DNA from: a virus
Length of the DNA stretch: 26,004 nt
Virus record (IMG/VR): IMGVR_UViG_3300041809_003489
Location: 1-26,004 of that record
Reading direction: 5' to 3' (one strand)
Below the pieces are notes generated by a model, which saw only the letters and a program-made list of their open reading frames with translations, made no database searches and was not told the origin of the DNA. Below are positions 2,491 to 24,681 of the stretch, in pieces (the stretch's first letter is position 1; each line of letters begins with the position of its first letter). A program made the translations under genes and the position numbers.

Positions 2491-2496
2491 TAGATA
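2491..2496 (+). promoter_or_regulatory. TAGATA motif before gene at 2503
   Basis: TAGATACTCATC precedes the ATG at 2503. It is a shorter match to the motif, flanked by a TCCC/GGGA pair. Confidence 0.4.
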
Positions 2497-2502
2497 CTCA
2501 TC

Positions 2503-2742
2503 ATGGGACGACCGCGCAAAGTGCCGGATAGCAAACCGGCGACCGGGGGCAACCTCAACATCTTCGAGCAGCTGGCAGGCATCGCCAAGGGCAGCGTGCC
2601 CGTCAAGGCGACTGTGAAGAAGCCCGCCGCGCCGCAGCCGACTCCCGATGGTCCCGACCAGCTCACCCTCGGTCCCGTGCAGTTTACGGTAGACCCCGAG
2701 TGGCTGCAAATCACCAATGACGCACTCTTCGAGGGTCTCTGA
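2503..2742 (+). CDS. Small unknown protein between terminase and portal
   Basis: The 79-residue protein has a basic N-terminus (MGRPRKVP), a Pro/Lys-rich middle and an acidic end. No family is recognised. The gene sits where many phages encode a head-tail joining or portal accessory protein, and its stop overlaps the portal start (TGATG). A TAGATA motif at 2491-2496 precedes the start by six bases, as for several other genes here. The initial G-R-P-R-K resembles an AT-hook, but there is only one copy, which is weak evidence for DNA binding. It is real by spacing and coupling; the function is unknown. Confidence 0.7.
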   Translation: MGRPRKVPDSKPATGGNLNIFEQLAGIAKGSVPVKATVKKPAAPQPTPDGPDQLTLGPVQFTVDPEWLQITNDALFEGL

Positions 2743-5147
2743 TGTTCGACTGGCTCAGCAAGGCATACCACCGGATCACCGGCAAGGCATACGACACGAG
2801 GGACCTCTTGGGGGTCGTGGACACGTCCCTCGGCTATGTCGATATTTGGCGCAAGCAGCCCCGCCCGAACCGCTACGCCCTCGCCCTCCAGCACAAGAAC
2901 GTCGCCTACTGCTGCTCGAACCTCAACGCGCAGGCGTGCCTCAAGACTCCGCTCCGGGTGTACCAGAAGAAGTACAACGGCGACAAGAGCCGGTTCCCGG
3001 CGAAGACCTTGAGCGGCATCGAGACCAAGCAGCTCACGACAAGGAACAAGCTCCGGCTTGCCGACGAGCAGCGGATTGACGAGCTGGCGGCGCACCCGCT
3101 CCTTGAGCTCCTCGACCGCCCGAACCCCTACATGGATACGGCGGCTTTGCTGGAATTCACGCAGTTGTTTATGGAAATCGTAGGCAGCTGCTACTGGTAC
3201 TGCATGAAAAACGACTGGGGCGTGCCGGTGGAGCTCTACCTCTTGTTGCCCCAATATGTGAGACCCGTTTGGGACCACATCGGCGGCAAGATTCTCTACT
3301 ACGACTACGCCGTGCCGGGCAAGCGGATCACCTACCAGCCTGATGAGATCGTGCCGTTCCTGATGCCCAACATCACGAACCCTTTGCTTGACGGCTACTC
3401 TCCGCTGATGGCGGTGTTTGAGAGCGTGAACATCGAGAACAAGCTGGCGGGCACGACCGCCAGCATCCTCGACAATTCCGGGCGACCGGATGCCGTGCTC
3501 ATCCCCAAGGACGGCATCGGGGCGGAGGAGGCGAGCCGGTGGGAGCAGCGCTTCAATGCACGTTTCCGCCGAAGTGGTAACGGCGGGGTGCTGGTCGCCG
3601 AAGAGGACGCGCAGCTCGTTCCGTTGCAGTTCTCTCCCCGTGATATGAGCTGGATGGCGATGCACGAGACCACCAAGGAGGCAATCTGCAACGCCTACGG
3701 GGTGCCTCCGCAGATGCTCTCCGCCGATGGGAGCACGCAGTACAACGTGGACGTCACTATCAGGCAGCGGCACGTCGAGGATGCCGTCACGCCTCGGCTA
3801 CGGCGCAACCAGAGCATTATCAACCGCTACCTCGTGCCCTTGTTCGACGGCTCCGGCGACCTGTTTTGCGCCTTCGACGACCCCAGCCCCACGAACCGGG
3901 AGATAGAGCGGCAGGATCTCCAGCTCTTGAGCGTGAATGGGGCGATGACCAAGAACGAACTGCGGCAGAAGTACGGCTATGAGCCGGTGGAGGAGTTCGA
4001 CGCGCCCACCGGGCAGAGTTTTTCCGTGGGATCGGGCAAGGTTGAGGAGGAAAAGCCCGCCGAAGTGGAGCGGGAAGAGGAAGAGAAGCCCGTCGAGGCG
4101 GAAGAGACCGAGCAGAGCCTCCAAACGAACCCCGCCTTGACCTTGAATGGGGCGCAAATTGCCTCGGCGACTGCCATCGTGCAGGCAGTGGCAGCGGGAC
4201 AAGTGCCTCGGGACTCCGGGATCGGGCAGCTGATGGTACTGCTCAACCTCACGGGAGAGCAGGCGGGGCAGGTCATGGGCTCCGTGGGGCTGGAAAAGCC
4301 CGCCGCAGCGCCCTCCGGGCCCGCCGAAGCCCCTCCCAAGCCCGCCAAGTGCGACTGCGGGCACGAGCACAAGGCGCACGAGGGGAGGAAAGGGCACGAC
4401 AAGGAGCTCCCCAAGGGCGAAGAGCTGGTCAAGGTACTCCGCAAGTTCTTCAAGAGCCAGCGTGAGCAGGTTATCGCCTCCTTGAACCGCACCAAGAGTG
4501 ACGACGGGCGCTTGCCCAGCAAGTTCCAGCCCTTGAAGAAGTGGGACCGGGAGCTCTACACCGAGGCGCAACCGCTGGTGCAGCTGGAGTTCCGCAAGGA
4601 GTACGAGAAGAACGCCCATGAGCTCAAGGCACGCACCGGGGTGAGCGACGAGAAGTTCAACGTCACCAGCCCCAAGCTCAAGGAGAAGTGCGAGCACCTC
4701 GCCTTGCACTTCTGCCAGGAGACCAACAACAGCACGACCATGGAGCTCAACGCAGCCCTCACGCAGCTCCGCAAGGACATCGAGGAAGGGCTGGTCGAGG
4801 AAGGCGACCGGATGAGCGACTTGACCAAGAGGGTGGAGGCGGTGTTCGACCGCGCCGACAAGGAGCGGGTGGAGTTGATAGCCCAAACGGAATCAAGCCG
4901 GGCGCATCACGAGGGCTTGAGGCAGTCGGCGAAGGATAGCGGGGTCGTCAAGGGCTTCAAGCTCCTGCCCAGTTCGGCAGCCTGCGAAAAGTGCCTTGAG
5001 CTGGCGGATACGGAGATCGGGCTCGACGAGTTCTTCGCCCACGATGAGCAGGCACCGGCAGAGTATCAAGACCGGTTCGTTCCGGTGCATCCGGCTTGTG
5101 AGTGCGCCGTGGAGCAGGTGTTGACGGAGGAGGAGCCGAAGGAATGA
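2742..5147 (+). CDS. Portal protein fused to a MuF-like head morphogenesis domain
   Basis: The 801-residue protein is about twice the usual portal length. Residues 1 to about 425 look like an HK97-type portal (N-terminal MFDWLSKAYHRITG, a central region with PPQMLSADGSTQYN). An acidic Glu-rich linker follows near 430-460, then a short helical region, a Cys/His cluster near 536-548 (CDCGHEHKAH) and a C-terminal domain resembling SPP1 gp7 or Mu F. That domain includes QTESSRAHHEGLRQ and paired cysteines near 745-748 (CEKC) and 783-785 (HPACEC), a likely zinc site. Portals form the DNA channel at the capsid vertex, and MuF-type proteins are internal minor head proteins. The fusion would place about one MuF domain on each portal subunit. 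No frameshift is visible. Confidence 0.88.
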   Translation: MFDWLSKAYHRITGKAYDTRDLLGVVDTSLGYVDIWRKQPRPNRYALALQHKNVAYCCSNLNAQACLKTPLRVYQKKYNGDKSRFPAKTLSGIETKQLTTRNKLRLADEQRIDELAAHPLLELLDRPNPYMDTAALLEFTQLFMEIVGSCYWYCMKNDWGVPVELYLLLPQYVRPVWDHIGGKILYYDYAVPGKRITYQPDEIVPFLMPNITNPLLDGYSPLMAVFESVNIENKLAGTTASILDNSGRPDAVLIPKDGIGAEEASRWEQRFNARFRRSGNGGVLVAEEDAQLVPLQFSPRDMSWMAMHETTKEAICNAYGVPPQMLSADGSTQYNVDVTIRQRHVEDAVTPRLRRNQSIINRYLVPLFDGSGDLFCAFDDPSPTNREIERQDLQLLSVNGAMTKNELRQKYGYEPVEEFDAPTGQSFSVGSGKVEEEKPAEVEREEEEKPVEAEETEQSLQTNPALTLNGAQIASATAIVQAVAAGQVPRDSGIGQLMVLLNLTGEQAGQVMGSVGLEKPAAAPSGPAEAPPKPAKCDCGHEHKAHEGRKGHDKELPKGEELVKVLRKFFKSQREQVIASLNRTKSDDGRLPSKFQPLKKWDRELYTEAQPLVQLEFRKEYEKNAHELKARTGVSDEKFNVTSPKLKEKCEHLALHFCQETNNSTTMELNAALTQLRKDIEEGLVEEGDRMSDLTKRVEAVFDRADKERVELIAQTESSRAHHEGLRQSAKDSGVVKGFKLLPSSAACEKCLELADTEIGLDEFFAHDEQAPAEYQDRFVPVHPACECAVEQVLTEEEPKE

Positions 5148-5506
5148 GCGAGGGCTTCTTCTACACCTACTTCGGCGATGCCCTCTACAAGCGCCTCCAT
5201 GACCAGCAGGCGCAGCGCATGGAGCGGGCTTGCATCCACTTGGAGAACGCCGTCAAGAAGGAGCTCGGCACCAAGTCCCCGCCAGCCAGCGCCCCGGGCG
5301 ACTTTCCGCACCTGGTCTCCGGCGAGCTGCGGCGCTCCATCACGCACGAGGTGGACAGGGCGAAGGTGACGGGCAGGGTAGGGACGAACAAGCTCTACAG
5401 CCGTTTCCTCATCCTTGGCACCCGCTACATGGAGCCGAGGGAGTTCCTCGACCGCACGCTCAAGGCGGAACGGGGACGCATAAGCCAGATATTGAAGGGT
5501 AGATAG
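5144..5506 (+). CDS. HK97 gp10-like head-tail protein
   Basis: The 120-residue product starts at the ATG overlapping the portal stop (ATGA). A longer reading frame from 5102 is open but lies inside the portal and adds only low-complexity residues. The pattern P-P-A-S-A-P-G-x-x-P-x-L-V-S-G-E-L-R-R-S-I, followed later by a G-T-x-Y-M-E-P-R-E-F-L-type ending, is characteristic of the HK97 gp10 family of head-tail connection or tail completion proteins. Its location before the protease is unusual, because this family normally follows the connector genes after the capsid. The stop codon lies within a TAGATAG motif that precedes the protease gene. Confidence 0.75.
   Translation: MSEGFFYTYFGDALYKRLHDQQAQRMERACIHLENAVKKELGTKSPPASAPGDFPHLVSGELRRSITHEVDRAKVTGRVGTNKLYSRFLILGTRYMEPREFLDRTLKAERGRISQILKGR
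5500..5506 (+). promoter_or_regulatory. TAGATAG motif before protease gene
   Basis: TAGATAGAGC directly precedes the ATG at 5510 and carries the stop of the gp10-like gene. No stem flanks it and no Shine-Dalgarno is present. Confidence 0.55.
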
Positions 5507-5509
5507 AGC

Positions 5510-6271
5510 ATGGGACTACAACGCAAGACCTACAAGGCGCTCAACCTCGCCATCGACAAGAAGAAGCGGGAGGTCGTCGCCGTCGCCAGCACCGACACCG
5601 TGGACCGAGTGGGTGAGGTCATCCTCCCCTCCGGTCTCCGCAAGGGGATCGACTACGGCGGGCGACCGATCCTGTGGAGCCATGAGGACGAACAGCTCCC
5701 CGTGGGCGTTATCAAGTGGGCGAAGGCGGATGGGGACAAGCTCATCGTCAAGTATCGGCTGAGTGACAAGACGCAGTTCGCCCGGGACGTGTTCGAGCTG
5801 ATGCAGGACGACTGCCTCCGCTTCCAGTCGATCGGGTTCGACATCTTCGAGGCTTCTCCACCCAGTGCTGAGGAGCAGAAGACCTACCCCGAGTGCAAGC
5901 GGATCATCCGGGACTGGGAGCTCCTGGAGCTCTCCATCGTCAACGTGCCCTGCAACCCCGAGGCGATGGTCATTGCCAAGAGGTACTGCGAGGACACCCG
6001 CAAGATGTTGGGCGCTGCATGGGAAGAGGTCGCTGAGGAGTGCTGGGAGTGGGACACGAAGGAGCTGTCACCTCAGCAGGTCAAGGAGCCCGTGCAGTCG
6101 GTCGTCGAGGCACCCAAGGCGCTCGTCATCCCCAAGCCCCGGATCATCCGCAACCTCAGCGCGGAGAAGCGGCGGCGACAGGCGGAGCTGGAACGGAAGG
6201 CGGTACAGCTCGTCAAGGCACGCCTCGACCCGGAGGAAATCCGCAAGAGAATCATGGGCATCGTGGGGTAA
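5510..6271 (+). CDS. HK97-family prohead maturation protease (S78-like)
   Basis: The 253-residue protein matches the prohead protease fold. The N-terminal strand region contains STDTVDRVGEVILP, followed by W-S-H-E with H58, then F-Q-S-I-G-F with S107, and W-E-L-L-E-L-S-I-V-N-V-P with E140. Together these give the expected His, Ser and acidic catalytic set. The enzyme would cleave the scaffolding part of the capsid protein during head assembly. The C-terminal third (residues 160-253) is highly charged and helical, as in proteases with a removable targeting tail. The start follows a TAGATAGAGC motif with no Shine-Dalgarno sequence. A strong terminator-like hairpin lies downstream at 6294-6331. 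Confidence 0.9.
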   Translation: MGLQRKTYKALNLAIDKKKREVVAVASTDTVDRVGEVILPSGLRKGIDYGGRPILWSHEDEQLPVGVIKWAKADGDKLIVKYRLSDKTQFARDVFELMQDDCLRFQSIGFDIFEASPPSAEEQKTYPECKRIIRDWELLELSIVNVPCNPEAMVIAKRYCEDTRKMLGAAWEEVAEECWEWDTKELSPQQVKEPVQSVVEAPKALVIPKPRIIRNLSAEKRRRQAELERKAVQLVKARLDPEEIRKRIMGIVG

Positions 6272-6336: not shown

Positions 6337-6392
6337 TGGCGAAATGGCGAGGTGGCGAGACCTCTTCGCCATTTCGCCACCTCGCCATTTTT
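6337..6392 (+). repeat. TGGCGA repeat palindrome with T-tract
   Basis: Three TGGCGA units in direct order are followed by their inverted copies. Two alternative stems are possible: 6338-6350 with 6366-6378 (13 bp, perfect) and 6344-6358 with 6374-6388 (15 bp, perfect), the second ending in TTTTT. It can act as a second terminator behind 6294-6331. Related TGGCGA-NN-TGGCGA repeats occur elsewhere in the window. Confidence 0.7.
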
Positions 6393-6405
6393 CTGCGCAG
6401 GTGCC

Positions 6406-6412
6406 CTATCTA
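6406..6412 (-). promoter_or_regulatory. TAGATAG motif, minus strand, no adjacent gene
   Basis: The minus strand reads TAGATAGGGCA, a full match to the recurrent motif, within the protease-capsid gap. No convincing minus-strand gene follows. It lies between possible TGCCC and GGGCA stem halves. The rest of the gap (6413-6525) holds nothing else recognisable. Confidence 0.4.
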
Positions 6413-6525
6413 CGGCAGCGGGCAGTGCCGCAGTGGGCAGCCGAGCATCACGCACAAGCGAGGGTGACGGCAGGCAATGCAGGGAACACGACCGCAGCAG
6501 CTTTAGATTGTGGAGTGTTTCCAAG

Positions 6526-7902: not shown

Positions 7903-7936
7903 GAACCCGTCAAGGTGAAAACCTTGGCGGGTTCTC
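7903..7936 (+). terminator. Hairpin after capsid gene
   Basis: AGAACCCG and CAAGG pair with CCTTG and CGGGTTCT around a GAAAA-type loop, then CTGTTG follows. The stem is strong but the T-tract is poor, so it may be a partial terminator or an mRNA 3' stabiliser that keeps capsid transcripts abundant. Confidence 0.65.
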
Positions 7937-7973: not shown

Positions 7974-7980
7974 TAGATAG
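7974..7980 (+). promoter_or_regulatory. TAGATAG motif before gene at 7985
   Basis: TAGATAGATCC precedes the ATG at 7985. The motif lies in the loop of a 6-bp stem with one bulge (CTCTGG 7967-7972 with CCA-t-GAG 7983-7989), so the start codon would be partly paired. Confidence 0.55.
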
Positions 7981-7984
7981 ATCC

Positions 7985-8341
7985 ATGAGGCGGAACTATT
8001 GCCGTAAGCCCTATGTCCCGCCCGGGAGGAAGACTGTGCTGTATTTGGACTGCGACACCTTGTTCAAGTGGAAGGGCATGAGGGATGCCGTGACCGGGCA
8101 GCCCATCGACGATGCCACCGTGACCGGCATCCTCGGCGATATGATCGGGCACCTGCTCTGCACCTTCACCTTCTCCTATGTCACCGGCAGCGACGGCGAC
8201 TACGTGGGAGTAGTCACGAAGGAGCAGGCGCAGCAGCTCGACGAGGGCGACCTGTACGTGGTGGAGATCACGGCGACCAAGAACGGCAGCACCGATGTAC
8301 GGCGCAGCCAGCACACGGCGGCTTACCGGGGGGACTTCTAA
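7985..8341 (+). CDS. Unknown structural protein after capsid
   Basis: The 118-residue protein sits between the capsid and the first connector. A start at 7946 is open, but the ATG at 7985 is chosen because it follows the TAGATAG motif directly. The sequence alternates hydrophobic and polar residues and ends with D-V-R-R-S-Q-H-T-A-A-Y-R-G-D-F, suggesting a beta-sandwich. The V-T-G-x-P-I-D-D-A-T-V-T-G segment resembles immunoglobulin-like domains used in virion decoration or baseplate proteins. A head decoration or tail accessory role is possible but not shown. It has no membrane segment. Confidence 0.65.
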   Translation: MRRNYCRKPYVPPGRKTVLYLDCDTLFKWKGMRDAVTGQPIDDATVTGILGDMIGHLLCTFTFSYVTGSDGDYVGVVTKEQAQQLDEGDLYVVEITATKNGSTDVRRSQHTAAYRGDF

Positions 8342-9973: not shown

Positions 9974-10002
9974 GGGGACTAGATAGAGCAGGTCCACCTC
10001 AG
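9970..10002 (+). promoter_or_regulatory. TAGATAG motif in hairpin loop before tail tube gene
   Basis: CTGAGGGGAC (9970-9979) pairs with GTCC (9992-9995), a bulged A, and CCTCAG (9997-10002). The 12-base loop is exactly TAGATAGAGCAG. It lies 12 bases upstream of the tail tube start and next to its AGAGG ribosome site. Confidence 0.7.
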
Positions 10003-10841: not shown

Positions 10842-11020
10842 CCGAGTTCTACCGCATCGGTCTCCAGAACCACCTCACCCCGCAGCAGATCGACGATATC
10901 ACGCTCCCGCAATGGTTCGCCCTCGCCCGCGCTTCTGAGTCCTCCGTCCCTGCCCCGATGATGCCCGCCAGCGCCGAAGAGGCTCGTCGGCTAGGGTTTG
11001 CGGTCAAGGCGGATAGATAA
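10422..11020 (+). CDS. Tail assembly chaperone, -1 frameshift product (gpGT-like)
   Basis: The heptamer A AAA AAA at 10808-10814 is in the correct register for a -1 slip. Slipping joins the first 131 codons to a -1 frame that is open to TAA at 11018-11020. The product is about 199 residues, with a 68-residue T-like extension that starts N-D-T-G-I-E-F-D-L-A-E-F-Y. The extension has no good start of its own; ATGs upstream in that frame lie inside the short form. Programmed -1 slippage at this spot is a conserved property of long-tailed phages, so this is well supported although the efficiency is unknown. Its stop overlaps the TAGATAA motif before the tape measure gene. Confidence 0.85.
11014..11020 (+). 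promoter_or_regulatory. TAGATAA motif before tape measure gene
   Basis: TAGATAAGGC lies directly before the ATG at 11024 and contains the chaperone stop codon. No flanking stem is seen here and no Shine-Dalgarno is present. Confidence 0.5.
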
Positions 11021-11023
11021 GGC

Positions 11024-12550
11024 ATGGGTGCTAATACGTTGGCGGAAGCAGTCGTCGAGATCAAGACGCAGGGCTTGGAGCAGGTCAAGAGCGGGTTCGC
11101 CGGGGTCAAGTCGATGCTCGGGCAGCTGGGCATCACTCCGGCGGCGCTGGGGTTCACTGCTCTGGGCGGCGCTCTGGCGTTCGCCACCAAGCGCGCCATC
11201 GACGCCGAAAAGCACCTCGCCGAAATGAAGGGGGCTTTGTCCTCCAGTGGGCAGGCAGTCAACGAGAACATCGCCCGGTTTAACCAGCTGGCGGAAGCAA
11301 TCCAAGGGACTACTACCGCAAGCAAGGGCGAGGTCAACGCGCTCATCCTCCAGGGCTTGCACATGGGGCTCTCTGCTCAGCAGGCGGCGCAGTTCGCCTC
11401 CATGAGCCTCGGGGCTGCCAAGGCGACCGGCAAGAGCGCCGAAGAGATCCTCGACGGTGCGGTCAAGCTCGCCAACGGGATGCGCTCGGGATTGGAACAC
11501 AGTGTCCCGGCCATAGCCAACGCAGCCACCCAGAGCGGCAAGCTGGCGGCGCTCTCCGCGCTGGGTAGGCAGGGGATGGGGATGATGCAGGAGGAGGCAG
11601 GGACGACCGGGGGCAAGATGGAGCATCTTTCCCAGAGCATCGGCTCCCTCTACACGAAGCTCGGCTCGGTCTTCCTCCCCGTGGTCTCTTCAATCGTAGA
11701 CGGCGTGCAGAGCTTCATCGACGTCGTGACGCAGGCAATCGGGGCGATACAGAGATTCAACGCCTCCAACGCTACGAGCATGAGCGAGAGCTCCGCCTCC
11801 TTCATCGACTTCGGCAACATCGGCAAGATGGTCTTCACCTGGATCACCGAGGGCGTCGAGTGGTGCGCCAAGTCCTGGCTCAAGATGAAGCTCAGCTTGG
11901 AACTCGTGGGGGCGGTGCTGGCGGCTACGTTCGACTACGGGCTGGAGTACGTCAAGGTTTTCGCCACCAACTCGTGGAACACCATTACCTGGTTCTTCGA
12001 GAACTTCGGCGACATCGCCAAGACGGTAGGGAACTACGTCGTGACCGTGTTCACCAACATGGGCAGCAACATGAAGAAGCTCTGGCAGGGAGTGATGGAC
12101 TTCCTCCACGGCAAGGGGTTCCACGTCGATTTTACCCCGCTCACCGAGGGCTTCAAGAACGAGATCAAGAAGATGCCGGAGTACGTCAAGGCGCAGGACC
12201 TCGGCTATGGGCAGGTCATCAACGGCATCCTCGACAAGATGAACGCCATCGACGAGAAGTTCCCCCAGCACTGGGCGAACGCAGCGAAGAAGGCGACCCC
12301 CGAACTCAAGAAGCAGCTGCAAGAGGCGATGAAGGTGGACTTGAAGCCCGTCGCCCCGAAGAAGACGGAAGGGAGCGGGAGCAGTAGCAGTTCGCTCACC
12401 GACATCTGGAAGAACGCGCAACAATCACTGCTCGGGGGCAACGTCGCCAAGCAACAGCTCAACATCGCCCAGCAGCAGCTCGTGGTTGCCAAGCAACAGC
12501 TCGCCATCACCAAGCAACATCAGCACAAGGGAGGCGTCGTCATCAAGTGA
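11024..12550 (+). CDS. Tail tape measure protein
   Basis: The 508-residue protein is almost entirely helical. It has the usual N-terminal coil (LAEAVVEIKTQGLEQVKSGF), Ala/Gly-rich hydrophobic segments near residues 40-65 and 285-310, and a C-terminal run of KQQL-type seven-residue repeats at about 475-500. It would set tail length and pass into the host membrane at infection. The length predicts a rather short tail: tens of nanometres if the common rule of about 0.15 nm per residue applies. Position after the frameshifted chaperone is diagnostic. The next gene's GTG overlaps its stop (GTGA). Confidence 0.88.
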   Translation: MGANTLAEAVVEIKTQGLEQVKSGFAGVKSMLGQLGITPAALGFTALGGALAFATKRAIDAEKHLAEMKGALSSSGQAVNENIARFNQLAEAIQGTTTASKGEVNALILQGLHMGLSAQQAAQFASMSLGAAKATGKSAEEILDGAVKLANGMRSGLEHSVPAIANAATQSGKLAALSALGRQGMGMMQEEAGTTGGKMEHLSQSIGSLYTKLGSVFLPVVSSIVDGVQSFIDVVTQAIGAIQRFNASNATSMSESSASFIDFGNIGKMVFTWITEGVEWCAKSWLKMKLSLELVGAVLAATFDYGLEYVKVFATNSWNTITWFFENFGDIAKTVGNYVVTVFTNMGSNMKKLWQGVMDFLHGKGFHVDFTPLTEGFKNEIKKMPEYVKAQDLGYGQVINGILDKMNAIDEKFPQHWANAAKKATPELKKQLQEAMKVDLKPVAPKKTEGSGSSSSSLTDIWKNAQQSLLGGNVAKQQLNIAQQQLVVAKQQLAITKQHQHKGGVVIK

Positions 12551-14672: not shown

Positions 14673-14869
14673 CCCAATGCGAATTCGAGACCGTCTCCGA
14701 GAACCTCCACCGGTGCAAGCACTGCGGGATGGAGGTGCGCACCAAGCACCCGCCGCAGAGAATTCATGCAGAGTGCCGCAGCTCCGCACCTCGACCCCCA
14801 AGGCGCTGCGAGCCCTGCGAGCGGCAGGCGGAAATCCGCCGGAGACTCGACGCCCTGCGAAATAGATAG
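14669..14869 (+). CDS. Small CxxC zinc-knuckle protein
   Basis: The 66-residue protein overlaps the previous stop (ATGA). It has C4, a C-K-H-C pair at 16-19, C36 and C-E-P-C at 47-50, with a very basic middle and end. This suggests a small zinc ribbon. Its stop TAG forms part of the TAGATAG motif before the next gene. The role is unknown; nucleic-acid or protein binding is plausible. Confidence 0.6.
   Translation: MTQCEFETVSENLHRCKHCGMEVRTKHPPQRIHAECRSSAPRPPRRCEPCERQAEIRRRLDALRNR
14863..14869 (+). promoter_or_regulatory. TAGATAG motif before gene at 14873
   Basis: TAGATAGGGC precedes the ATG at 14873. GCCCT (14852-14856) can pair with AGGGC (14868-14872), with part of the motif in the loop. 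Confidence 0.5.
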
Positions 14870-14872
14870 GGC

Positions 14873-15232
14873 ATGGACTCTACCTGCAAGACTTGCGGCA
14901 TACCACTCTGGCACAGCGCCATCATCAACCGGGATATGGTACAGGGCACCGACCAGAACGGCAGCCCCGCCCTCGTCGCCCATGAGAAGCACGGCTGGGC
15001 ATCACAGATCATCGGGCACTGTCCCAAGTGCCATGCGGAGGTGGTCGAGGAGGTCGATTGTCACTGGAGCGAGCTCCCGCCCGCGCCGAAGGCTCCGCTC
15101 CAGCCGTTGCCCCCGGCTGCTCCGGGCTCATTCCCGGGGACGGCGGCGATACAGGCGACGGTGAAGACCGGCACGACCACGACCACGGCTACCGTGCAGG
15201 CTCCGGCTCCCACGACCCCGGAGGCGAAATGA
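14873..15232 (+). CDS. Small zinc-ribbon protein with Pro/Thr tail
   Basis: The 119-residue protein has C-K-T-C near residue 5-8 and C-P-K-C near 50-53, giving a four-cysteine zinc ribbon. The rest is a flexible tail rich in Pro, Ala and Thr, including a T-T-T-T-T stretch. It follows a TAGATAGGGC motif with no Shine-Dalgarno. The stop overlaps the next start (ATGA). A secreted or virion location is possible because of the tail, but there is no signal peptide. Confidence 0.6.
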   Translation: MDSTCKTCGIPLWHSAIINRDMVQGTDQNGSPALVAHEKHGWASQIIGHCPKCHAEVVEEVDCHWSELPPAPKAPLQPLPPAAPGSFPGTAAIQATVKTGTTTTTATVQAPAPTTPEAK

Positions 15233-16866: not shown

Positions 16867-17180
16867 TTCGTCTCCCTCCGGCTCTTGAGCAGCTCCTTGA
16901 CGTCGCTCTTGATTTCGCCAAGGGTCGTAAAGAGCTCCTTCTCAGTGACGACCTGCGCGGCGACGTGAGCCTGGTAGGACGTGTTGAGGGTTGCGGTGGA
17001 GCTCTCGGCACTGTTACCTGCCGCCAGCGCCATGCCCACCAGCACGATAAGGACCGTCAAGAGGATGCCCAGTGCCGAGAGTGCCCAGCGGGTCACGGTT
17101 TCGTTGCGCTGGCAGTGGAGCATCGGCACGTACTCTTCGGTGGTCGTGGTCGTCGGCATTGATTGTCCCTCTTGTGACAT
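16863..17180 (-). CDS. Single-pass membrane protein with coiled tail
   Basis: The 105-residue product has one strong membrane segment at about residues 33-55 (ALSALGILLTVLIVLVGMAL) and a charged helical end (VVTEKELFTTLGEIKSDVKELLKSRRE). The first ATG (17180) follows a TAGATAGGAT motif. A second ATG at 17159 has a GAGGG ribosome site and would remove seven residues. Topology by the positive-inside rule is unclear. It could be a holin-like or host-modification protein; no family is recognised. Confidence 0.65.
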   Translation of the reverse strand: MSQEGQSMPTTTTTEEYVPMLHCQRNETVTRWALSALGILLTVLIVLVGMALAAGNSAESSTATLNTSYQAHVAAQVVTEKELFTTLGEIKSDVKELLKSRRETK

Positions 17181-17183
17181 ATC

Positions 17184-17190
17184 CTATCTA
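17184..17190 (-). promoter_or_regulatory. TAGATAG motif before membrane protein gene
   Basis: On the minus strand TAGATAGGAT precedes the ATG at 17180, and its TAG is the stop codon of the 25-residue ORF. ATCCT and AGGAT flank the site and could pair. Confidence 0.5.
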
Positions 17191-17265
17191 TCCCAGCCGG
17201 GCGAGGATGCGGCAGAGCTGGGCGAGGAGGAGCTCAAGTGCTTGCATCAGTTCTTCCTCACTCAT
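17188..17265 (-). CDS. 25-residue coupled peptide
   Basis: The ORF starts inside the last codons of the nuclease gene (8-base overlap) and encodes a 25-residue Leu-rich amphipathic helix (MSEEELMQALELLLAQLC, then RILARLG). It fills the gap between nuclease and membrane protein genes exactly, and its stop is part of the TAGATAG motif. Translational coupling from the nuclease makes expression plausible. It could be a toxin-like, antitoxin-like or purely regulatory peptide. Confidence 0.45.
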   Translation of the reverse strand: MSEEELMQALELLLAQLCRILARLG

Positions 17266-17812
17266 AGCCCCGGCTCCTGGTTGCGCGGGAGAGCTCCCGC
17301 AAGGTCTTGAGCTCCTCCGGTAGCAAGGGTCTCACCTCATGCATGAGCTCCAAGGAGAAGTAGACAATGCCTCCCTGGTAGTTGTCCTCGACGTGGACCA
17401 GCCCCCGCCGCTCTACCTCGGGCTCACGCTCCAGCTCCCGGAAGCTCAGGCAGTAGATCCTTGCTTCTGATGGGTGTTCGTCGATGAACAGTAGGAGGAA
17501 GTCGATGAAGAGCGGGTCGTCCTTTGCCTTCTCATAGGCATCGAGGTAGGCGAGAAAATACTTGAGGCTAACGCCCGTGTCGGGGTAGAGGTTCCTGCGC
17601 GCCTTCGCCTTCGAGTCCCCGAGGATGTAGTGCCCGTCCTCGGCAGTGAACCGGTGGTCATAGTCGTGCGACCCCTCGGGGCAGAGCTCCCCGCCGCGCC
17701 ACGGTCCCAAGTGCTCGAACCCCTGCCCGGCGAACTCCGCCTTGATGAGATCCTCGGCATAGTCCCCATGCGACTGCCGTTGCAAGAATGTGCCTGCCAT
17801 AGTGCCTCCCAT
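17258..17812 (-). CDS. PD-(D/E)XK-like nuclease
   Basis: The product is 184 residues from the ATG at 17812. Motifs, numbered from that start, are a helix Y-A-E-D-L-I-K with E20, then H-D-Y-D with D50 and D52, then a strand ending G-D-S-K-A-K with D66 and K68. The order E, D, D-x-K fits the restriction-endonuclease-like fold. It would cut DNA, but specificity cannot be told. Three starts are possible: GTG at 17863, ATG at 17812 and ATG at 17800. Each ATG is preceded by the same GGGAGGCACT ribosome site because a 12-base unit is duplicated. It heads the leftward cassette. Alternatives are a resolvase-like or replication nuclease. Confidence 0.6.
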   Translation of the reverse strand: MGGTMAGTFLQRQSHGDYAEDLIKAEFAGQGFEHLGPWRGGELCPEGSHDYDHRFTAEDGHYILGDSKAKARRNLYPDTGVSLKYFLAYLDAYEKAKDDPLFIDFLLLFIDEHPSEARIYCLSFRELEREPEVERRGLVHVEDNYQGGIVYFSLELMHEVRPLLPEELKTLRELSRATRSRGYE

Positions 17813-17855
17813 AGTGCCTCCCACAAAAAAACGGCTTGAGCTTTCGCACGTTCTT

Positions 17856-17891
17856 TCAGGCACTCACGCAGGCACTCACTCCTTCTTTCAT
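17856..17891 (-). CDS. Possible 11-residue leader peptide
   Basis: The minus strand reads TAGATAAGG and then an ATG opening MKEGVSACVSA and a stop. The motif spacing is like that of true genes here. It overlaps the upstream GTG of the nuclease frame and contains a repeated GTGAGTGCCTG segment. It may be a leader peptide, or the motif may just be the promoter for the nuclease. Confidence 0.3.
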   Translation of the reverse strand: MKEGVSACVSA

Positions 17892-17893
17892 CC

Positions 17894-17900
17894 TTATCTA
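17894..17900 (-). promoter_or_regulatory. TAGATAA motif before leftward cassette
   Basis: Minus-strand TAGATAAGG lies immediately before an ATG at 17891. It is in the 68-base divergent region between the leftward cassette and the triple-HTH gene. Confidence 0.5.
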
Positions 17901-17928: not shown

Positions 17929-17968
17929 GACGCTACTACATATCTATAACCAACAACGGAGGTAGAAG

Positions 17969-18643
17969 ATGAAGGACAAGGAAATGGCGGGAAAGCTTGA
18001 CGACGAGAAGCTGGGCACGCTCTGGACGACAGCGGCAGTGGCGCGGGAGGTGGGAGTCTTCGATGCCACGTTCCGGGACTGGCGGAAGACCGGGAAGATA
18101 ACCGCCGCGCCCTCGGTCAAGCGGGGCAAGCGGTGGTTCTACACGGAAGAGCAGGTCGCCGAGCTGCTGCGGGAGGTCAAGCGGCGCGCCCTACGCCGTG
18201 CTGAGCGCGACCGGCACTACACGGGCATTCAGCTCGCCAAGGACCTGCAAGTACACCCGAATTCCTGGAGGATGCACCTCCGGCTCGGCAACCTCCCCAA
18301 GCCTGCCCTCGACGACCGCTACTACACCCACGAGCAGGCGCAGGCAATCCGGGCGTTTTTCAGCCACCGGGCGAAGCTCGCCCACGACTGCGGGCAGCTC
18401 TTCCCTGGCTTGCAGCAGCTCGGGGCGACCCGGAAGGAGGCGGAGTGGTGCATGGGGCACAAGTCCCTGTGGCTCGACCTCGACCAGCCGTTCCTCGGCG
18501 GGCGCGGGAAGAAGTCCCGCTACTACAGCTGGCAGCAGCTCACCAAGATACTCCGCCGGTGCCGGCTGATGAGACCTACCCTCAACCCCCGGGCACAACA
18601 GCGAGGTGGCGAGATGGCGAAGACCAAGAAGGGGGAAAAATGA
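17969..18643 (+). CDS. Regulator with three MerR-like DNA-binding units
   Basis: The 224-residue protein appears to contain three tandem winged-helix units of MerR/excisionase type. Unit 1 is about residues 18-70 (TAAVAREVGVFDATFRDW, ending W-F-Y-T-E-E-Q-V-A-E-L). Unit 2 is about 84-135 (Y-T-G-I-Q-L-A-K-D-L-Q-V, ending Y-Y-T-H-E-Q-A-Q-A-I). Unit 3 is about 150-200 (GATRKEAEWC, ending Y-Y-S-W-Q-Q-L-T-K-I-L). Each ends with an aromatic pair and a helix, the wing pattern of the family. It has a good GGAGG site. It stands first in the rightward early region and overlaps the next gene (ATGA). It could be the main transcriptional switch or an origin-binding protein. A TGGCGA repeat lies near its 3' end. 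Confidence 0.65.
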   Translation: MKDKEMAGKLDDEKLGTLWTTAAVAREVGVFDATFRDWRKTGKITAAPSVKRGKRWFYTEEQVAELLREVKRRALRRAERDRHYTGIQLAKDLQVHPNSWRMHLRLGNLPKPALDDRYYTHEQAQAIRAFFSHRAKLAHDCGQLFPGLQQLGATRKEAEWCMGHKSLWLDLDQPFLGGRGKKSRYYSWQQLTKILRRCRLMRPTLNPRAQQRGGEMAKTKKGEK

Positions 18644-18980: not shown

Positions 18981-19023
18981 ATCCGACAGGATAACTATTA
19001 CATAACAAGAGGAGGGCAAGAGC

Positions 19024-19215
19024 ATGAGGACCAACAGGCACAAGGACGGGACGACCAAGAGCTACCCCATCGAGTCCCTCAACGTACCCGAGGGGACGGG
19101 AGCCCTGGTACGCAGGCTTGCCGAAGAGCGGAAAACCTCCGCCTACCAGCTCGCCGGGGAAATCATCCGGCAGTGGGCGGAGACCCATGAGGCGGAGCTG
19201 CTAGATACCCAGTGA
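19024..19215 (+). CDS. Ribbon-helix-helix-like small protein
   Basis: The 63-residue protein has a polar beta-like start (S-Y-P-I-E-S-L-N-V-P) and two helices (ALVRRLAEERKT and YQLAGEIIRQWAETH) in the order of MetJ/Arc-type DNA-binding proteins. A strong GGAGG site precedes it. It lies just before the polymerase-like gene and could control it. The call is by layout only. Confidence 0.55.
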   Translation: MRTNRHKDGTTKSYPIESLNVPEGTGALVRRLAEERKTSAYQLAGEIIRQWAETHEAELLDTQ

Positions 19216-19229
19216 ACAGCAACAAAAAT

Positions 19230-19259
19230 GCCCACGGGTCCCGCCAAGAACCCGTGGGC
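19230..19259. terminator. 10-bp hairpin before polymerase-like gene
   Basis: GCCCACGGGT (19230-19239) pairs perfectly with ACCCGTGGGC (19250-19259). In the rightward sense there is no T-tract after it, and an AAGGA ribosome site follows. In the leftward sense it is followed by TTTTT, so it would terminate antisense transcription. It covers the first codons if the ATG at 19228 were used. Confidence 0.6.
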
Positions 19260-19269
19260 GAAAGGAAAG

Positions 19270-20778
19270 ATGCCTACTCAATATAGCCCAGCCGAACTCA
19301 GAAAAGCAAACGGAAGAACCGTCAAGGGCTTCAAGTCGTACCCCGAGGCAGAACGTCACGGCTACTTCAGCGCCAAGAACCTCAAGCAGAAGTTCGGGCT
19401 CTCCGTCCCCGAGCGCGTCCTCCCGCTCTATGATGCAACCGTGAGCACCAACTGGGGCGCGAAGGCGGTCTACACCCTCAAGCAGTGCCGGAAGCCCGAG
19501 GAAGTACGTCGAGAAACCTCTCCGGCGCAAATCCCGGAGATCCCCGATCACTATAAACCTTCTTCTCCTCCTCCCTCCCCTCCCCATTACGATATGGATC
19601 ATGTCGTAATCCAGGAAAGTTTAAGGTACTTACGTCAAGAGACACCCGAGACGGAGAATAAGGACTTACGGCGACGGAAGACCTACCTCCCGGAGCACCT
19701 CGACCTTGAGAAGGCGCTGCCCGAACTGGTAGCCGTCAAGCCCCAAGTCGAGAGCCTCCTCGACATCCTGCACCGCCGACGTATCCAGGAGAAGCTCGGG
19801 CGCGAGGACTTCGTGCCCCTCAAGGCCCGCTACCTTCAGGACCAGCTCGGCTGGGACGCATCAAGAAAGCCTCTGTGGGACTCAATCCGTGAGCCTCTGC
19901 TCCTAAGCGGGCTCTTGGAGTGCGACCACCACTATGAGAAGGGCACGAAGTGCTTCGGCTACCGGCTCGGTGAGAAGTACCGCCAAGAGAAGACTGTCCT
20001 CGTCGAGACTCAAGCCCCCAAGGCCCGCCGCAAGGACCAGGAGAAGCCCACGCTCCCCGTCCATAAGCAGCTCGTCGCCAACCTCCAGAGTATCACCCTC
20101 GACCCGTCATGGCACGAGGACGTGCCGAGCGAGCGCTTCCAGGACTGCTGCCAGATGATCGACGACCGGCAGTGGTGGTGGAGGCTCAAGGACGAGAGCG
20201 GGCACCGCTTCCACTGGAACCTCACCAATACCCCCAGGGACGCCAAGAAGTACATCCGCGTTGACGGCACGAGCCCCGTGGAGATCGACATCAGCAACTC
20301 CCAGCTCTGGGCGCTCGCCATGCTGCTCAAGCAGCGCGGCACAGCAGGCTGCGAGGAGTTCATCCGCTTTGCCGAGCGCGGCGAGTTCTACGACCACTTC
20401 ACCCGCCACGGGTTCTCCCGCCAGGAGGTCAAGGACGAGTTCCGGGAGAACATCCTCTTCAAGCGCAACGGCTACCAGAGCCGCATCAAGACCGCCTTCA
20501 AGCAGGAGTTCCCGGCGGTCAACGCAGCCATGGAGAAGTGGAAGGAGAAGGACCCGAAGACCTTCGCCAAGCTCCTCCAGCGCACCGAGGCAAAGTTCTG
20601 CATCTACACCGTAGCCGAGCGGCTCTGCCGCATGGGGATCTGGTGCGTCACCATCCATGACTCCTTCCTGGTTTTACCCGATGACCGGGAAGCTGCTATA
20701 AACACGATCCAAGAAGCGGCGCGAGAACTCGGCATGACCATCACCAACAAGGTCAAGGACTATGGACTCCACGACTAA
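19270..20778 (+). CDS. Divergent family-A DNA-polymerase-like protein, probable replicase
   Basis: The 502-residue protein has a basic N-terminus, a Pro/Ser linker near residues 90-105, a winged-helix-like segment near 187-238 (ending F-G-Y-R-L-G-E-K-Y), and a C-terminal palm-like region. Motif A is V-E-I-D-I-S-N-S-Q with D340. A motif B-like helix has R384-x3-K388 and later N-G-Y. Motif C is C-V-T-I-H-D-S-F with H463 and D464. The order and the HD pair match Pol I-type polymerases, but the protein lacks the exonuclease domain and is shorter. It probably replicates or primes phage DNA. The start at 19270 has an AAGGA site and is preferred over 19228, which lies at a hairpin. The alternative is an inactive polymerase-derived initiator. 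Confidence 0.65.
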   Translation: MPTQYSPAELRKANGRTVKGFKSYPEAERHGYFSAKNLKQKFGLSVPERVLPLYDATVSTNWGAKAVYTLKQCRKPEEVRRETSPAQIPEIPDHYKPSSPPPSPPHYDMDHVVIQESLRYLRQETPETENKDLRRRKTYLPEHLDLEKALPELVAVKPQVESLLDILHRRRIQEKLGREDFVPLKARYLQDQLGWDASRKPLWDSIREPLLLSGLLECDHHYEKGTKCFGYRLGEKYRQEKTVLVETQAPKARRKDQEKPTLPVHKQLVANLQSITLDPSWHEDVPSERFQDCCQMIDDRQWWWRLKDESGHRFHWNLTNTPRDAKKYIRVDGTSPVEIDISNSQLWALAMLLKQRGTAGCEEFIRFAERGEFYDHFTRHGFSRQEVKDEFRENILFKRNGYQSRIKTAFKQEFPAVNAAMEKWKEKDPKTFAKLLQRTEAKFCIYTVAERLCRMGIWCVTIHDSFLVLPDDREAAINTIQEAARELGMTITNKVKDYGLHD

Positions 20779-21010: not shown

Positions 21011-21018
21011 GCAGTACG

Positions 21019-21231
21019 ATGAGCAAGCGGATCACCGTAACCGTGGACGAAAAACTTGAGCGGCACCTCCGCGCCGTCGCTCATTTCCGGCGGCAGGCGT
21101 GGCATGAGTTCATGGTAGACCTGCTCAGCAAGGGCAGCGAGTACGGCGAGGCATCCTACACCGTCAAGAGGTTCCCCCGGCATAGCCCAGCCGTGACCAA
21201 TGAAGAGCTAGCCAAGGCGCTGGGCTGGTGA
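21019..21231 (+). CDS. Ribbon-helix-helix-like protein
   Basis: The 70-residue protein starts with an R-I-T-V-T-V-D-E strand, followed by a helix (LERHLRAVAHFRRQ) and a second helix (WHEFMVDLLSKGS), the CopG/Arc layout. It ends with T-N-E-E-L-A-K-A-L-G-W. A GGAGG site precedes it but is held in a hairpin with the TAGATAG motif in its loop. It ends exactly where the convergent gene ends. It is probably a transcriptional repressor or autoregulator. Confidence 0.65.
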   Translation: MSKRITVTVDEKLERHLRAVAHFRRQAWHEFMVDLLSKGSEYGEASYTVKRFPRHSPAVTNEELAKALGW

Positions 21232-21444
21232 TTAGGACGGAGCCCGCCGTAGAACCGCAGAGACCCTTCGCCCGTCCCTCTTGGGTCGAGTGTGCTGGCC
21301 GTCGAGTACGTACCCCCGCACGGTCTCCGGCACTCCAGGTATGAGCCCCCGAACCGCCCGGGACATCGAGCATCGCTGGCGGCGAGCATAGGCAGCCAGC
21401 GCCTCGAACTGGTCCTCGGTCATGTAGATGCAGGCAATCCTCAT
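21232..21444 (-). CDS. Ribbon-helix-helix-like protein, leftward
   Basis: The 70-residue protein starts R-I-A-C-I-Y-M-T-E-D-Q-F-E-A-L-A-A-Y-A-R and has a strongly basic end. A short strand followed by a helix fits ribbon-helix-helix regulators, though the second helix is short (SRAVRGLIPG). It is convergent with the 21019 gene with no spacer. Its start follows TAAATAGGGC, a one-base variant of the recurrent motif, within a 9-bp inverted repeat. It could be a lysogeny-type regulator because it is read opposite to the replication genes. Confidence 0.55.
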   Translation of the reverse strand: MRIACIYMTEDQFEALAAYARRQRCSMSRAVRGLIPGVPETVRGYVLDGQHTRPKRDGRRVSAVLRRAPS

Positions 21445-21467
21445 GCCCTATTTATCCCGAGGATTGC
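21434..21467 (-). promoter_or_regulatory. TAAATAG motif inside 9-bp inverted repeat
   Basis: GCAATCCTC (21434-21442) and GAGGATTGC (21459-21467) are perfect inverted copies. Between them, on the minus strand, lies TAAATAGGGC followed by the ATG. The start codon itself is at the edge of the stem. Confidence 0.65.
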
Positions 21468-21810: not shown

Positions 21811-21983
21811 GCAGGTCATCCGAGACTACACCAGAAGAGTTGACCACCTGGGGGTAGGACTTTTTTCGGGGCGACGGGGTGGTAAAGGGCAGCGTAGGCG
21901 CTAACACCCGACTCCTAGTACACCCTTAATAACTTCCGCAGAAGGTGGCGAAATGGCGATCAGAGCCGATCCGAATCTATCGG

Positions 21984-22012
21984 TTTACATCCGCGGGCAG
22001 TCGGGCTATAAT
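21984..22012 (+). promoter_or_regulatory. Sigma70-type promoter
   Basis: TTTACA (21984-21989) and TATAAT (22007-22012) are separated by 17 bases. This is the clearest housekeeping promoter in the window and would start RNA near 22019, some 160 bases before the 22183 gene. It lies next to a TGGCGA repeat. Confidence 0.75.
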
Positions 22013-22018
22013 CCGGGT

Positions 22019-22682: not shown

Positions 22683-22701
22683 TTGACGGGAGGTTGGAGC
22701 C

Positions 22702-22839: not shown

Positions 22840-22867
22840 TTCCGCGGTTGCCTGCCCATGGACGGGC

Positions 22868-22915
22868 GGGGCTGATTGTTAGCCCCGGTGGTGACGGATG
22901 CTGCCGGGGCGATTT
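22868..22915 (+). promoter_or_regulatory. Attenuator-like hairpin pair A
   Basis: GGGGC (22868-22872) can pair with GCCCC (22882-22886). The segment GCCCCGG (22882-22888) can instead pair with CCGGGGC (22904-22910), which is followed by GATTT. The two are mutually exclusive. The same design recurs at 23352-23405. Confidence 0.6.
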
Positions 22916-22939
22916 CATGATCTGGAGGAGACGTTGATA

Positions 22940-23329
22940 ATGCGAGATTTTATGAGTGAGGTATTGCCCCAATGGAGGACGCTTGAGCGGCTTGTGCCGG
23001 AGTGGAAGCGGGACGTCCCAGAGATTTCGTGGATGCACCAGCTCTACCGGGAGCTGCACGAGGTGCTCCATCGCACGGCGACGGAGTTCGTCAATCGGAA
23101 GTTAGAGGAGCTCCGCCCCGGCGGTCGGTCGCTCTACTACGCCAGCGTAAAGCCCGACGACAGCGGCGAGGCGATCTGCATTGGGCTGCCGTTGAGCGTG
23201 CAGGTCATGGCGATCGACGGCTGGGACGCGCGGCGGCAGGTGTTCGGCGCGGGGCTCTACCAGTTCCGGCGAGCGCCGGAGATCGACCAGATCATTTGCC
23301 AGGTGAAGGGGCAAGAGGACGAGGAGTAG
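22940..23329 (+). CDS. Unknown protein, early region
   Basis: The 129-residue protein has a GGAGGA site upstream of the ATG at 22940; ATG at 22898 and 22952 are alternatives. It is helical at first (FMSEVLPQWRTLERLVPEWK, then H-Q-L-Y-R-E-L-H-E-V-L-H-R-T-A-T-E-F) and beta-like later (A-I-C-I-G-L-P-L-S-V-Q-V-M-A-I-D-G-W-D). It ends in an acidic tail. It lies after attenuator A and before attenuator B. No family is recognised. Confidence 0.6.
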   Translation: MRDFMSEVLPQWRTLERLVPEWKRDVPEISWMHQLYRELHEVLHRTATEFVNRKLEELRPGGRSLYYASVKPDDSGEAICIGLPLSVQVMAIDGWDARRQVFGAGLYQFRRAPEIDQIICQVKGQEDEE

Positions 23330-23351
23330 AGTAGTACCCGCGTATGACGGG

Positions 23352-23405
23352 CGGGGTGTTGTGAGTAGAACCCCGGGCCCACACGGAAGTGGTTCCGGGG
23401 CTTTT
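23352..23405 (+). promoter_or_regulatory. Attenuator-like hairpin pair B
   Basis: CGGGGT (23352-23357) can pair with ACCCCG (23370-23375). CCCCGG (23371-23376) can instead pair with CCGGGG (23395-23400), with an inner CCAC/GTGG stem, and is followed by CTTTT. The second form is a terminator. It shares flanking ATG(G)ACGGGCGGGG and CATGATC sequences with pair A. Confidence 0.65.
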
Positions 23406-23438
23406 CCATGATCCGAACGAAAGTAAAAAGGTGCAGTG

Positions 23439-23690
23439 ATGAACGAGCGAGAGAAGAAGCAGCAGCTCAACGACAGCGACGGCGACCGCTTTATGCGAAA
23501 GCTAGTCGCTCTGTGCGAAGGCGAAGATATCGGCGTGGTGCTAAATGCCGGGCTGATTTTGGTGGCGAGCTGCTGGGTCAACTGGAAGCGGGCAGAGCAC
23601 TCGGAGGTGACGGTCGTCGCCCATGCGCTGGGCGACGCGCTGACTGCCTTCGAGCGGGACTTCGATCTGCGAAACTTGGAGGCGAACTGA
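23439..23690 (+). CDS. Small protein before AAA+ ATPase
   Basis: The 83-residue protein starts at the ATG at 23439; a GTG directly before it (23436) is an alternative. It has a weak AAGGTG site. The charged start (NEREKKQQLNDSDGDRFMRK) is followed by a hydrophobic stretch (IGVVLNAGLILVASCWV) and a helix (VVAHALGDALTAFERDF). Its stop overlaps the ATPase start (TGATG), suggesting a partner in a fixed ratio. The hydrophobic part is short for a membrane helix. Function unknown. Confidence 0.55.
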   Translation: MNEREKKQQLNDSDGDRFMRKLVALCEGEDIGVVLNAGLILVASCWVNWKRAEHSEVTVVAHALGDALTAFERDFDLRNLEAN

Positions 23691-24649
23691 TGGACCATTT
23701 AGAAGCCCTCCGCCAGCGCCAGGAGATCATCATTGCCCGTGTGCGGAGCGTGGCGCTGCGGTACACCAACGGGGTGTACCTTTGGGGTCCACCAGGCACG
23801 GGCAAGACCCACACCGTCAAGGAGACCCTCACTGCCGAGCTCGGCAAGGAGGGAGACGGCTGGGTGTACACCCGAGCGAAGATGACCGACCAGGGGTTTT
23901 TTGAGCTCTTGGAGGAGAACCCCTCCAAGGTCATCACCCTCGACGACGTGGTGGAGGTCAAGGCGAAGGGCGACCTCGAACGCTACTTGTTGGCAGCGTG
24001 TGGGAACGAGGACTCCGCCGGGAGTCCCCGCCGGGTGCCATATCGAAGGAGCGGCGGATCTCGGGTGGTGGAGTTCTCCGGCGGCATCGTGATCATATCG
24101 AACCTCACCACGGTCAACGAGGCATTGAAGAGCCGGCTCCCCTACCTCGCCCACGACCCCACGCCGGAGCAGTTGGCGGCGCTGGTGCGGGAGATCGCCC
24201 GCGCCGGATGCCCCCACTACGGGCTCACGGCTCGGGAGTGTGCTGAGGTCGCCGAGTTCGTGATCGAGGACTGTGCGAAGGAAGGCACGCGCCTTGACCT
24301 CCGGTGGCTCGTGGACAAGGGCTACCCGGATCGGGCAATGCACAAGGACGGCAAGACCAAGGTTCACTGGAAGACCTTGCTGCACGCCAGCATCGTCGAG
24401 GCGGCGGTGGTTGTGGAGCGGCAGCCCGAGACCTTGGCGGAGCGAACGGCGAAGCACCGCTCGGAGGCGAGGGAGATACTCCGGCTGTTCCCCACGAGCC
24501 TCCAGGACCAGTACAAGATGTGGGAGGCGCTGGGCGGCGATTACCGCACCCGCCGCACCTTCGACCGCCTCAAGCAGTGGTGCAAGGCGAATCCTTCGCC
24601 ACCTCGCCATCTCGGCAACGGCAGCCAGAACGGCAACGGTCACGCCTAG
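23690..24649 (+). CDS. AAA+ ATPase, possible helicase loader or DNA-handling factor
   Basis: The 319-residue protein has Walker A at 33-40 (GPPGTGKT), Walker B at 81-86 (VITLDD), a sensor-1 Asn at 138 in I-V-I-I-S-N-L-T and a candidate arginine finger at R149 (ALKSRLPYL). An insert near 105-125 (G-N-E-D-S-A-G-S-P-R-R-V) is basic and may bind DNA. The C-terminal part is helical with an HTH-like R-T-R-R-T-F-D-R-L-K-Q-W and a Gly/Asn tail. Such short AAA+ proteins in phages often load helicases or move DNA; this fits with the replicase in the same element but is inferred. A terminator follows at 24682. Confidence 0.75.
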   Translation: MDHLEALRQRQEIIIARVRSVALRYTNGVYLWGPPGTGKTHTVKETLTAELGKEGDGWVYTRAKMTDQGFFELLEENPSKVITLDDVVEVKAKGDLERYLLAACGNEDSAGSPRRVPYRRSGGSRVVEFSGGIVIISNLTTVNEALKSRLPYLAHDPTPEQLAALVREIARAGCPHYGLTARECAEVAEFVIEDCAKEGTRLDLRWLVDKGYPDRAMHKDGKTKVHWKTLLHASIVEAAVVVERQPETLAERTAKHRSEAREILRLFPTSLQDQYKMWEALGGDYRTRRTFDRLKQWCKANPSPPRHLGNGSQNGNGHA

Positions 24650-24653
24650 ATAG
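24647..24653 (+). promoter_or_regulatory. TAGATAG motif after ATPase gene
   Basis: TAGATAGGGCA overlaps the ATPase stop and is followed by an ATG at 24660, but the frame there runs through a terminator. Only GCC/GGC (3 bp) flanks the motif. It might start a short RNA ending at 24712. Confidence 0.45.
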
Positions 24654-24681
24654 GGCAGCATGCAGGATCTACTTGAGCTAC

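Follow-up and report, generated by a model that had tools for sequence, protein, structure and literature searches.

A TANATA signal at gene starts as the probable core of a phage-specific promoter class in a temperate planctomycete phage and in Gemmataceae prophages

Introduction

A short motif of the TAGATAG type recurs at gene starts throughout the IMG/VR virus record IMGVR_UViG_3300041809_003489 (G000), whose 26,004 bases were analysed as a whole and are referred to here as the window. An earlier note on this DNA had proposed that the motif could be a -10-like promoter for leaderless mRNAs, a site for a phage-specific sigma factor or an RNA–protein binding site. The analysis described here indicates that it is probably the central part of a bipartite promoter class specific to phages, serving mostly leaderless mRNAs in this temperate planctomycete phage and in other phages of the Gemmataceae.

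A survey of 953 bacterial genomes has reported that TANNNT located about 12 bp upstream of starts marks leaderless genes (PMC3160421). The present signal resembles these TA-led genes in its TA-rich hexamer just before the ATG, in the lack of a Shine-Dalgarno (SD) sequence and in being predicted to act as a promoter of leaderless mRNAs. However, TANNNT at about 12 bp is not what is found here: the hexamer is TANATA at 10-12 bp, it is accompanied by an extra A/T-rich box, and it is confined to phages and nearly absent from host genes, so that the signal differs from TA-led leaderless promoters in sequence, spacing and phage confinement.

Start-Associated Sequences (SAS) are known from cluster K mycobacteriophages, where the consensus is GGGATAGGAGCCC (PMC3203893), and from cluster EF Microbacterium phages (PMC7302621), with further sources in PMC12699233 and PMC11373665. 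Like SAS, the motif is a short asymmetric repeat conserved right at many phage gene starts, is rare in the host, sometimes overlaps the upstream stop codon and contains GATAGG. Nevertheless, SAS occupy the ribosome-binding position, 3-9 bp upstream, and have SD complementarity, whereas the window motif abuts the ATG without an SD, follows a different consensus (TANATANGGC), and is preceded by an A/T box and at some sites also by a terminator.

In cluster A mycobacteriophages (L5, TipsytheTRex), repressors act at sites called stoperators, whose sequences change in step with the repressor (PMC9283540, PMC6550527). The motif shares with them asymmetric, transcription-oriented sites in short intergenic gaps throughout a temperate phage genome, but neither a fixed distance to the ATG nor a second promoter box has been reported for stoperators, no repressor was identified, and no regulator family is common to all six elements compared here. 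Membership in SAS or in stoperators is not claimed. Finally, the AR9 late promoters, AACA-N6-TA/G, form a phage-specific promoter class (PMC5312081) that likewise places a dedicated consensus before phage transcription units; AR9 relies on a multisubunit RNA polymerase of its own, and its leaders are long, whereas no such polymerase was identified in these elements. A literature search on gene regulation in planctomycete phages gave no matching study, and the field is almost undescribed.

The window and the elements compared with it

The window encodes a terminase, a portal protein with a Mu-F-like domain, a prohead protease, a capsid protein and an integrase, and it is therefore considered a temperate tailed phage. 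Searches with its terminase, portal, integrase and polymerase-like protein gave no close relatives among viral contigs, phages and plasmids. Homologues of the portal protein, with 27-36% identity, are present in many planctomycete genomes, the strongest in G037 and G138, and the sequence of this protein points to Planctomycetota. G138 is Zavarzinella formosa DSM 19928, as it contains that strain's locus L088, and the genus Zavarzinella belongs to the Gemmataceae.

The comparison set comprises six elements, the window and the prophages of G138, G118, G098, G223 and G265, whose coordinates count within the fetched regions (L163 and L164 for G138, L178 and L179 for G118, L180-L182 for G098, L183 and L184 for G223, and L190 for G265). 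At the sensitivity used, the only protein families common to all six are portal and capsid. The computations established the enrichment of the motif, its orientation and position, the second box, the nearby terminators, its sharing by several phages and its scarcity in hosts.

The motif at gene starts of the window

All the sites listed in the earlier note are present in the sequence, and TAGATAG occurs 8 times in the window against 0.87 expected from dinucleotide shuffles. Five copies match TAGATAGRGCA exactly (5500, 9980, 14863 and 24647 on the plus strand and 6412 on the minus strand). Inspection of every TANATA hexamer of the window has shown that only TANATA is invariant; the extension to GGCA, which had been taken as part of the match, stands as a frequent tail but not as a constant one, and both the G-rich tail and the spacing to the ATG vary. 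Variants are found at 11014 (TAGATAAGGCA), 7974 (TAGATAGATCC) and 20985 (TAGATAGGTAA) on the plus strand and at 21454 (TAAATAGGGCA), 17190 (TAGATAGGATA) and 17900 (TAGATAAGGAT) on the minus strand, while the site at 2491 (+; TAGATACTCATC) has just TAGATA in common with the motif. Three plus-strand sites can be added to those previously listed, TACATA at 17937 and 18999 and TAGATA at 19202, with starts 25-32 bp downstream.

K-mer enrichment that ignored position was overwhelmed by codon bias. TASATA (S being C or G) occurs 15 times in the window, against 3.7 expected under a first-order Markov model, and a same-strand called start lies 8-40 bp downstream of 11 of these 15, such start windows covering 2.7% of strand positions (binomial P ~6e-15); the chief weakness of this figure is that starts were called by hand as the longest sensible open reading frame (ORF), sometimes at an internal ATG (e.g., 7985), but the effect much exceeds any plausible start-calling error. 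At the 17900 site (-), the adjoining ATG begins an 11-codon ORF, and the true start of the gene is therefore unsure.

Clustering in Gemmataceae prophages and scarcity in hosts

The five prophages carry the signal TA(G/C/A)ATA-N-GGC-ATG, mostly 10 (or 11) bp before the ATG. In the Z. formosa prophage, the portal gene begins TACATAGGGC-ATG, and a scan of the region gave TA(G/C)ATA-NNNC-ATG at several further starts. The 10.1-Mb genome of Z. formosa contains 7 matches to TASATANNNCATG (6 forward, 1 reverse), all of them inside the 38-kb prophage region. Matches to TASATANGGCA fall inside phage sequence in 3 of 3 cases in the G138 prophage, 3 of 3 in G118 (contig C52), 3 of 4 in G098 (C1, 45-60 kb) and 2 of 3 in G223 (contig C307), the reversed controls giving 13, 3, 1 and 8 matches genome-wide, respectively, and a wider pattern forms identical clusters in the genomes. 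In 740 kb of the Z. formosa chromosome, TASATA is near just one of the 144 ATG starts that could be used, and SD-like tetramers concentrate at -9 to -14 of host starts; these scarcity counts apply to the genomes of the relatives' hosts. It follows from the clustering in prophages and the scarcity at host starts that the signal is a property of certain phages and not of their hosts.

A motif used host-wide was rejected, since TAGATAGRGCATG gave 9 matches against about 14 in reversed controls in 392 planctomycete genomes, which is chance level. Neither is the signal general to planctomycete phages. It was not found in 541 kb of distant HK97-type viral contigs of other origin (3 matches, 5 in controls). 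Portal-related viral contigs gave 5 matches against 2 in controls, 3 of the 5 on L279, which matches the Z. formosa prophage in these sites and in their flanks. Another portal-related viral contig, L281 (50% GC), carries three TACATA-N5-ATG sites, at 5418, 7594 and 17057 (+), in which the spacing is nearly the same, a pattern that is only suggestive of a variant of the same signal.

A promoter-like anatomy

The motif recurs at corresponding positions among phages. It is found at the terminase–portal junction in six of six elements (window 2491, G138 9682, G118 7526, G098 31478, G223 7169 and G265 10667), following the capsid gene or at the head–tail gene that comes after it in five (window 7974, G223 10375, G098 28371, G138 17146 and G265 19666), and ahead of the large gene that comes after small tail genes in two (window 11014 and G138 23208). 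A strong hairpin lies 10-45 bp upstream of the motif at G138 23208, G223 10375, G098 28371, G265 19666 and window 7974. If these hairpins are terminators, the next RNA must begin between the hairpin and the ATG, beside the motif. The idea of a terminator upstream of every site was discarded, as only some sites have one and the T-rich stretch before the portal gene in G118 and G223 is the coding end of the terminase gene.

A second box was discovered without prior expectation. The stretch of 5-6 bases between -20 and -15, counted from TANATA, is rich in A and T (about 0.65, compared with 0.41 overall), with permutation p < 2e-4 when only window sites are counted and p = 6e-4 in the other phages after the terminator-linked sites were taken out. 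The A/T box and TANATA form a DNA-level, promoter-like arrangement. As expected of a phage-specific promoter, the element is bipartite at a fixed spacing, and it is repeated before phage transcription units but not before host genes.

The start codons behave likewise. Window starts that the motif abuts, at a distance of 9-12 bp, have no well-placed SD, the protease gene having one marginal AAGG at -15, and an SD is absent from 21 of 22 such starts in the other phages. An SD-like match precedes 4 of the 5 window starts that have the motif 25-34 bp upstream (10014, 17969, 19024, 19228 and 21019). This split by motif distance is what a promoter, and not a start-codon element, would be expected to give.

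The proposed model and the evidence against it

The proposed model is that RNA polymerase with a specificity factor would read TANATA and the A/T-rich box centred about 17 bp upstream of it, so that RNA would begin a few bases downstream of TANATA. An ATG 4-6 bases after TANATA would give a leaderless or near-leaderless mRNA without an SD, while an ATG 25-34 bases from the motif would leave a short leader, usually carrying an SD. Such promoters would give head, tail, regulator and other genes transcription units of their own, in many cases right after an intrinsic terminator. RNA polymerase binding, the position of the RNA start and translation of the leaderless mRNAs are all three presumed in this model, and a transcript start at the start codon would follow from the upstream terminators and the missing SD. 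The -10-like leaderless promoter of the earlier note is thus favoured by the A/T box, the upstream terminators of the relatives, the SD split and the near-absence from hosts; of its proposal of a phage-specific sigma site, the phage-specific transcription signal is likewise supported, but no sigma factor or other recogniser was identified.

Several observations weigh against this model. The A/T box is poor at 17190 (-; 2/7) and absent at 6412 (-). TANATA with 4 bp to +1, and with A as sixth base, misfits the -10 element of sigma-70, and window starts show no enrichment of TANNNT (5/152 in start windows). No recogniser common to the six phages was found, shared families being only portal and capsid. 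Moreover, the copies at 6412 (-) and 24647 (+), although exact, have no likely gene after them, as the earlier note had recognised, and each faces a hairpin; possibly they have decayed, drive the synthesis of very short RNAs or play a different role.

It could be argued that the motif is instead a translation-initiation element, a start-codon RNA motif read by the ribosome or by a phage factor in the manner of the cluster K SAS. The 10-bp spacing to the ATG, fixed at most abutting sites, the missing SD at these starts and, as with SAS, the upstream stop codons that fall within the motif would fit this proposal. However, 3 of the 5 exact 11-mers do not adjoin an ATG, TACATA or TAGATA also lies 25-34 bp before starts that are mostly SD-led, and the upstream A/T box is a DNA feature, which makes such an element unlikely. 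No more than 4 contiguous nt of the motif match the 16S tail of Z. formosa (CCTCCTTTCTAAGG), which also speaks against such an element; an SD variant was rejected on this basis, in agreement with the earlier note. The RNA–protein binding site is also disfavoured, by the two exact 11-mers without a start codon and by the sites at 25-34 bp.

An equally improbable alternative is that the sites are stoperator-like, asymmetric repressor sites halting prophage transcription in short intergenic gaps as in mycobacteriophage L5 (PMC9283540, PMC6550527). Their orientation with transcription, their spread over a temperate genome, their overlap with start and stop codons and the orphan copy at an operon end ahead of a terminator are in line with that role, but the fixed ATG distance and the second A/T box are not, and several sites are just after terminators, where blocking elongation would be pointless. 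Furthermore, one sequence is kept across phages without a detectably shared repressor, whereas stoperator sequences track theirs. That the sites are plain sigma-70 promoters of the host, with nothing phage-specific about them, and belong to the TANNNT leaderless kind, which is widespread in bacteria (PMC3160421), is very improbable, given the scarcity of TASATA at Z. formosa host starts, the unenriched TANNNT at window starts, the sixth base A instead of T and the spacing of 10 instead of 12.

Candidate recognisers

In the phage-specific promoter model, the specificity factor could be encoded by the host or by the phage. With no families but portal and capsid in common, a host-encoded factor is favoured, or else small phage regulators that have diverged. 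A phage polymerase-like protein was rejected as the recogniser, as the window protein has a homologue in the G265 element only. Candidate regulators are small proteins that combine a MerR-type helix-turn-helix (HTH) with another HTH of resolvase- or GcrA-like type, encoded at L178 3826-4239 (-) and L183 3624-4268 (-), with an orthologue in G098. This double-HTH protein is common to G118, G098 and G223, and loosely to G138, but it was not joined with any window protein; the window encodes a MerR-like protein at 17969. Neither of them identifies the recogniser.

A broader proposal, slightly less likely than not, is that Gemmataceae phages have in common a promoter class of their own (A/T box, about 14 bp, TANATA-N-GGC-ATG), although their proteins, portal and capsid apart, show little detectable kinship. 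It would be read by a non-housekeeping factor for mostly leaderless structural and regulatory mRNAs, host starts being SD-led.

Motif sites and other features of the window

Table 1. Motif sites of the window and the hairpin after the capsid gene
Feature	Position	Strand	Context
Weak motif TAGATACTCATC	2491..2502	+	12 bp before ATG 2503 (g4); terminase–portal junction, one small gene ahead of portal
TAGATAGAGC-ATG	5500..5512	+	Start 5510, prohead protease gene; motif overlaps the upstream gene's stop codon
Strong terminator-like hairpin	7903..7934	+	After major capsid gene, just upstream of 7974 motif
TAGATAGATCC-ATG	7974..7987	+	Start 7985, gene after capsid gene; arrangement matched in G223, G098, G265
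TAGATAGAGCA	9980..9990	+	34 bp before SD-led ATG 10014
TAGATAAGGC-ATG	11014..11026	+	Start 11024, putative tape-measure gene; G138 701-aa gene likewise preceded
TAGATAGGGC-ATG	14863..14875	+	Start 14873
TAGATAGGAT-ATG	17178..17190	-	Start 17180, minus-strand gene
TAGATAAGG-ATG	17889..17900	-	Ahead of gene 17258-17863; complete A/T box, 7/7
TACATA	17937..17942	+	32 bp before SD-led ATG 17969, MerR-like gene
TACATA	18999..19004	+	25 bp before SD-led ATG 19024
TAGATA	19202..19207	+	26 bp before ATG 19228, polymerase-like protein
TAGATAGGTAA	20985..20995	+	34 bp before SD-led ATG 21019, ribbon-helix-helix-like protein
TAAATAGGGC-ATG	21442..21454	-	Start 21444, second ribbon-helix-helix-like gene
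Orphan exact TAGATAGGGCA	24647..24657	+	Overlaps stop of AAA gene; faces terminator 24682-24711
Orphan exact TAGATAGGGCA	6402..6412	-	No gene start; A/T box 1/7; faces 6340-6392 hairpin

Between the 17900 motif and gene 17258-17863, the stretch 17855-17900 (-) contains direct repeats (GTGAGTGCCTG) and the 11-codon ORF as a possible leader. At 24647, inverted-partner half-sites were noticed by eye. The two small ribbon-helix-helix-like genes, 21019-21231 (+) and 21232-21444 (-), are convergent, each start is preceded by the motif, and they have no Pfam match. The gene at 19228-20778 (+) encodes a 516-aa protein with the palm-polymerase-like stretches VEIDISNSQ and IHDSFLV, without a Pfam match but with distant matches in jumbo phage genomes besides the G265 homologue; by sequence, it is possibly a PolA-like replication protein.

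Other repeats were also observed. Sequence of the TGGCGAAATGGCGAGGTGGCGA type is repeated at 6340-6400, 21943-21960 and 24755-24775, and its copy at 6340-6392 is a long hairpin between the protease and capsid genes, followed by TTTTTCTGCGCA, which closely resembles the string after the 24682-24711 terminator. In the window, GCAGGCAAT (ATTGCCTGC) has 6 copies against 0.2 expected, including those at 6474, 20777 and 21432, and in the 38-kb G138 prophage region (L163/L164) CGGGAAAA/TTTTCCCG has 21 copies against 2.7 expected.

Implications

A promoter class shared by these phages and scarce in host genes would permit promoter maps and transcription-unit calls from sequence alone. It would also provide a testable case of phages relying on leaderless translation, for which the prophage of Zavarzinella formosa is a culturable test system, and it predicts an undiscovered specificity factor.

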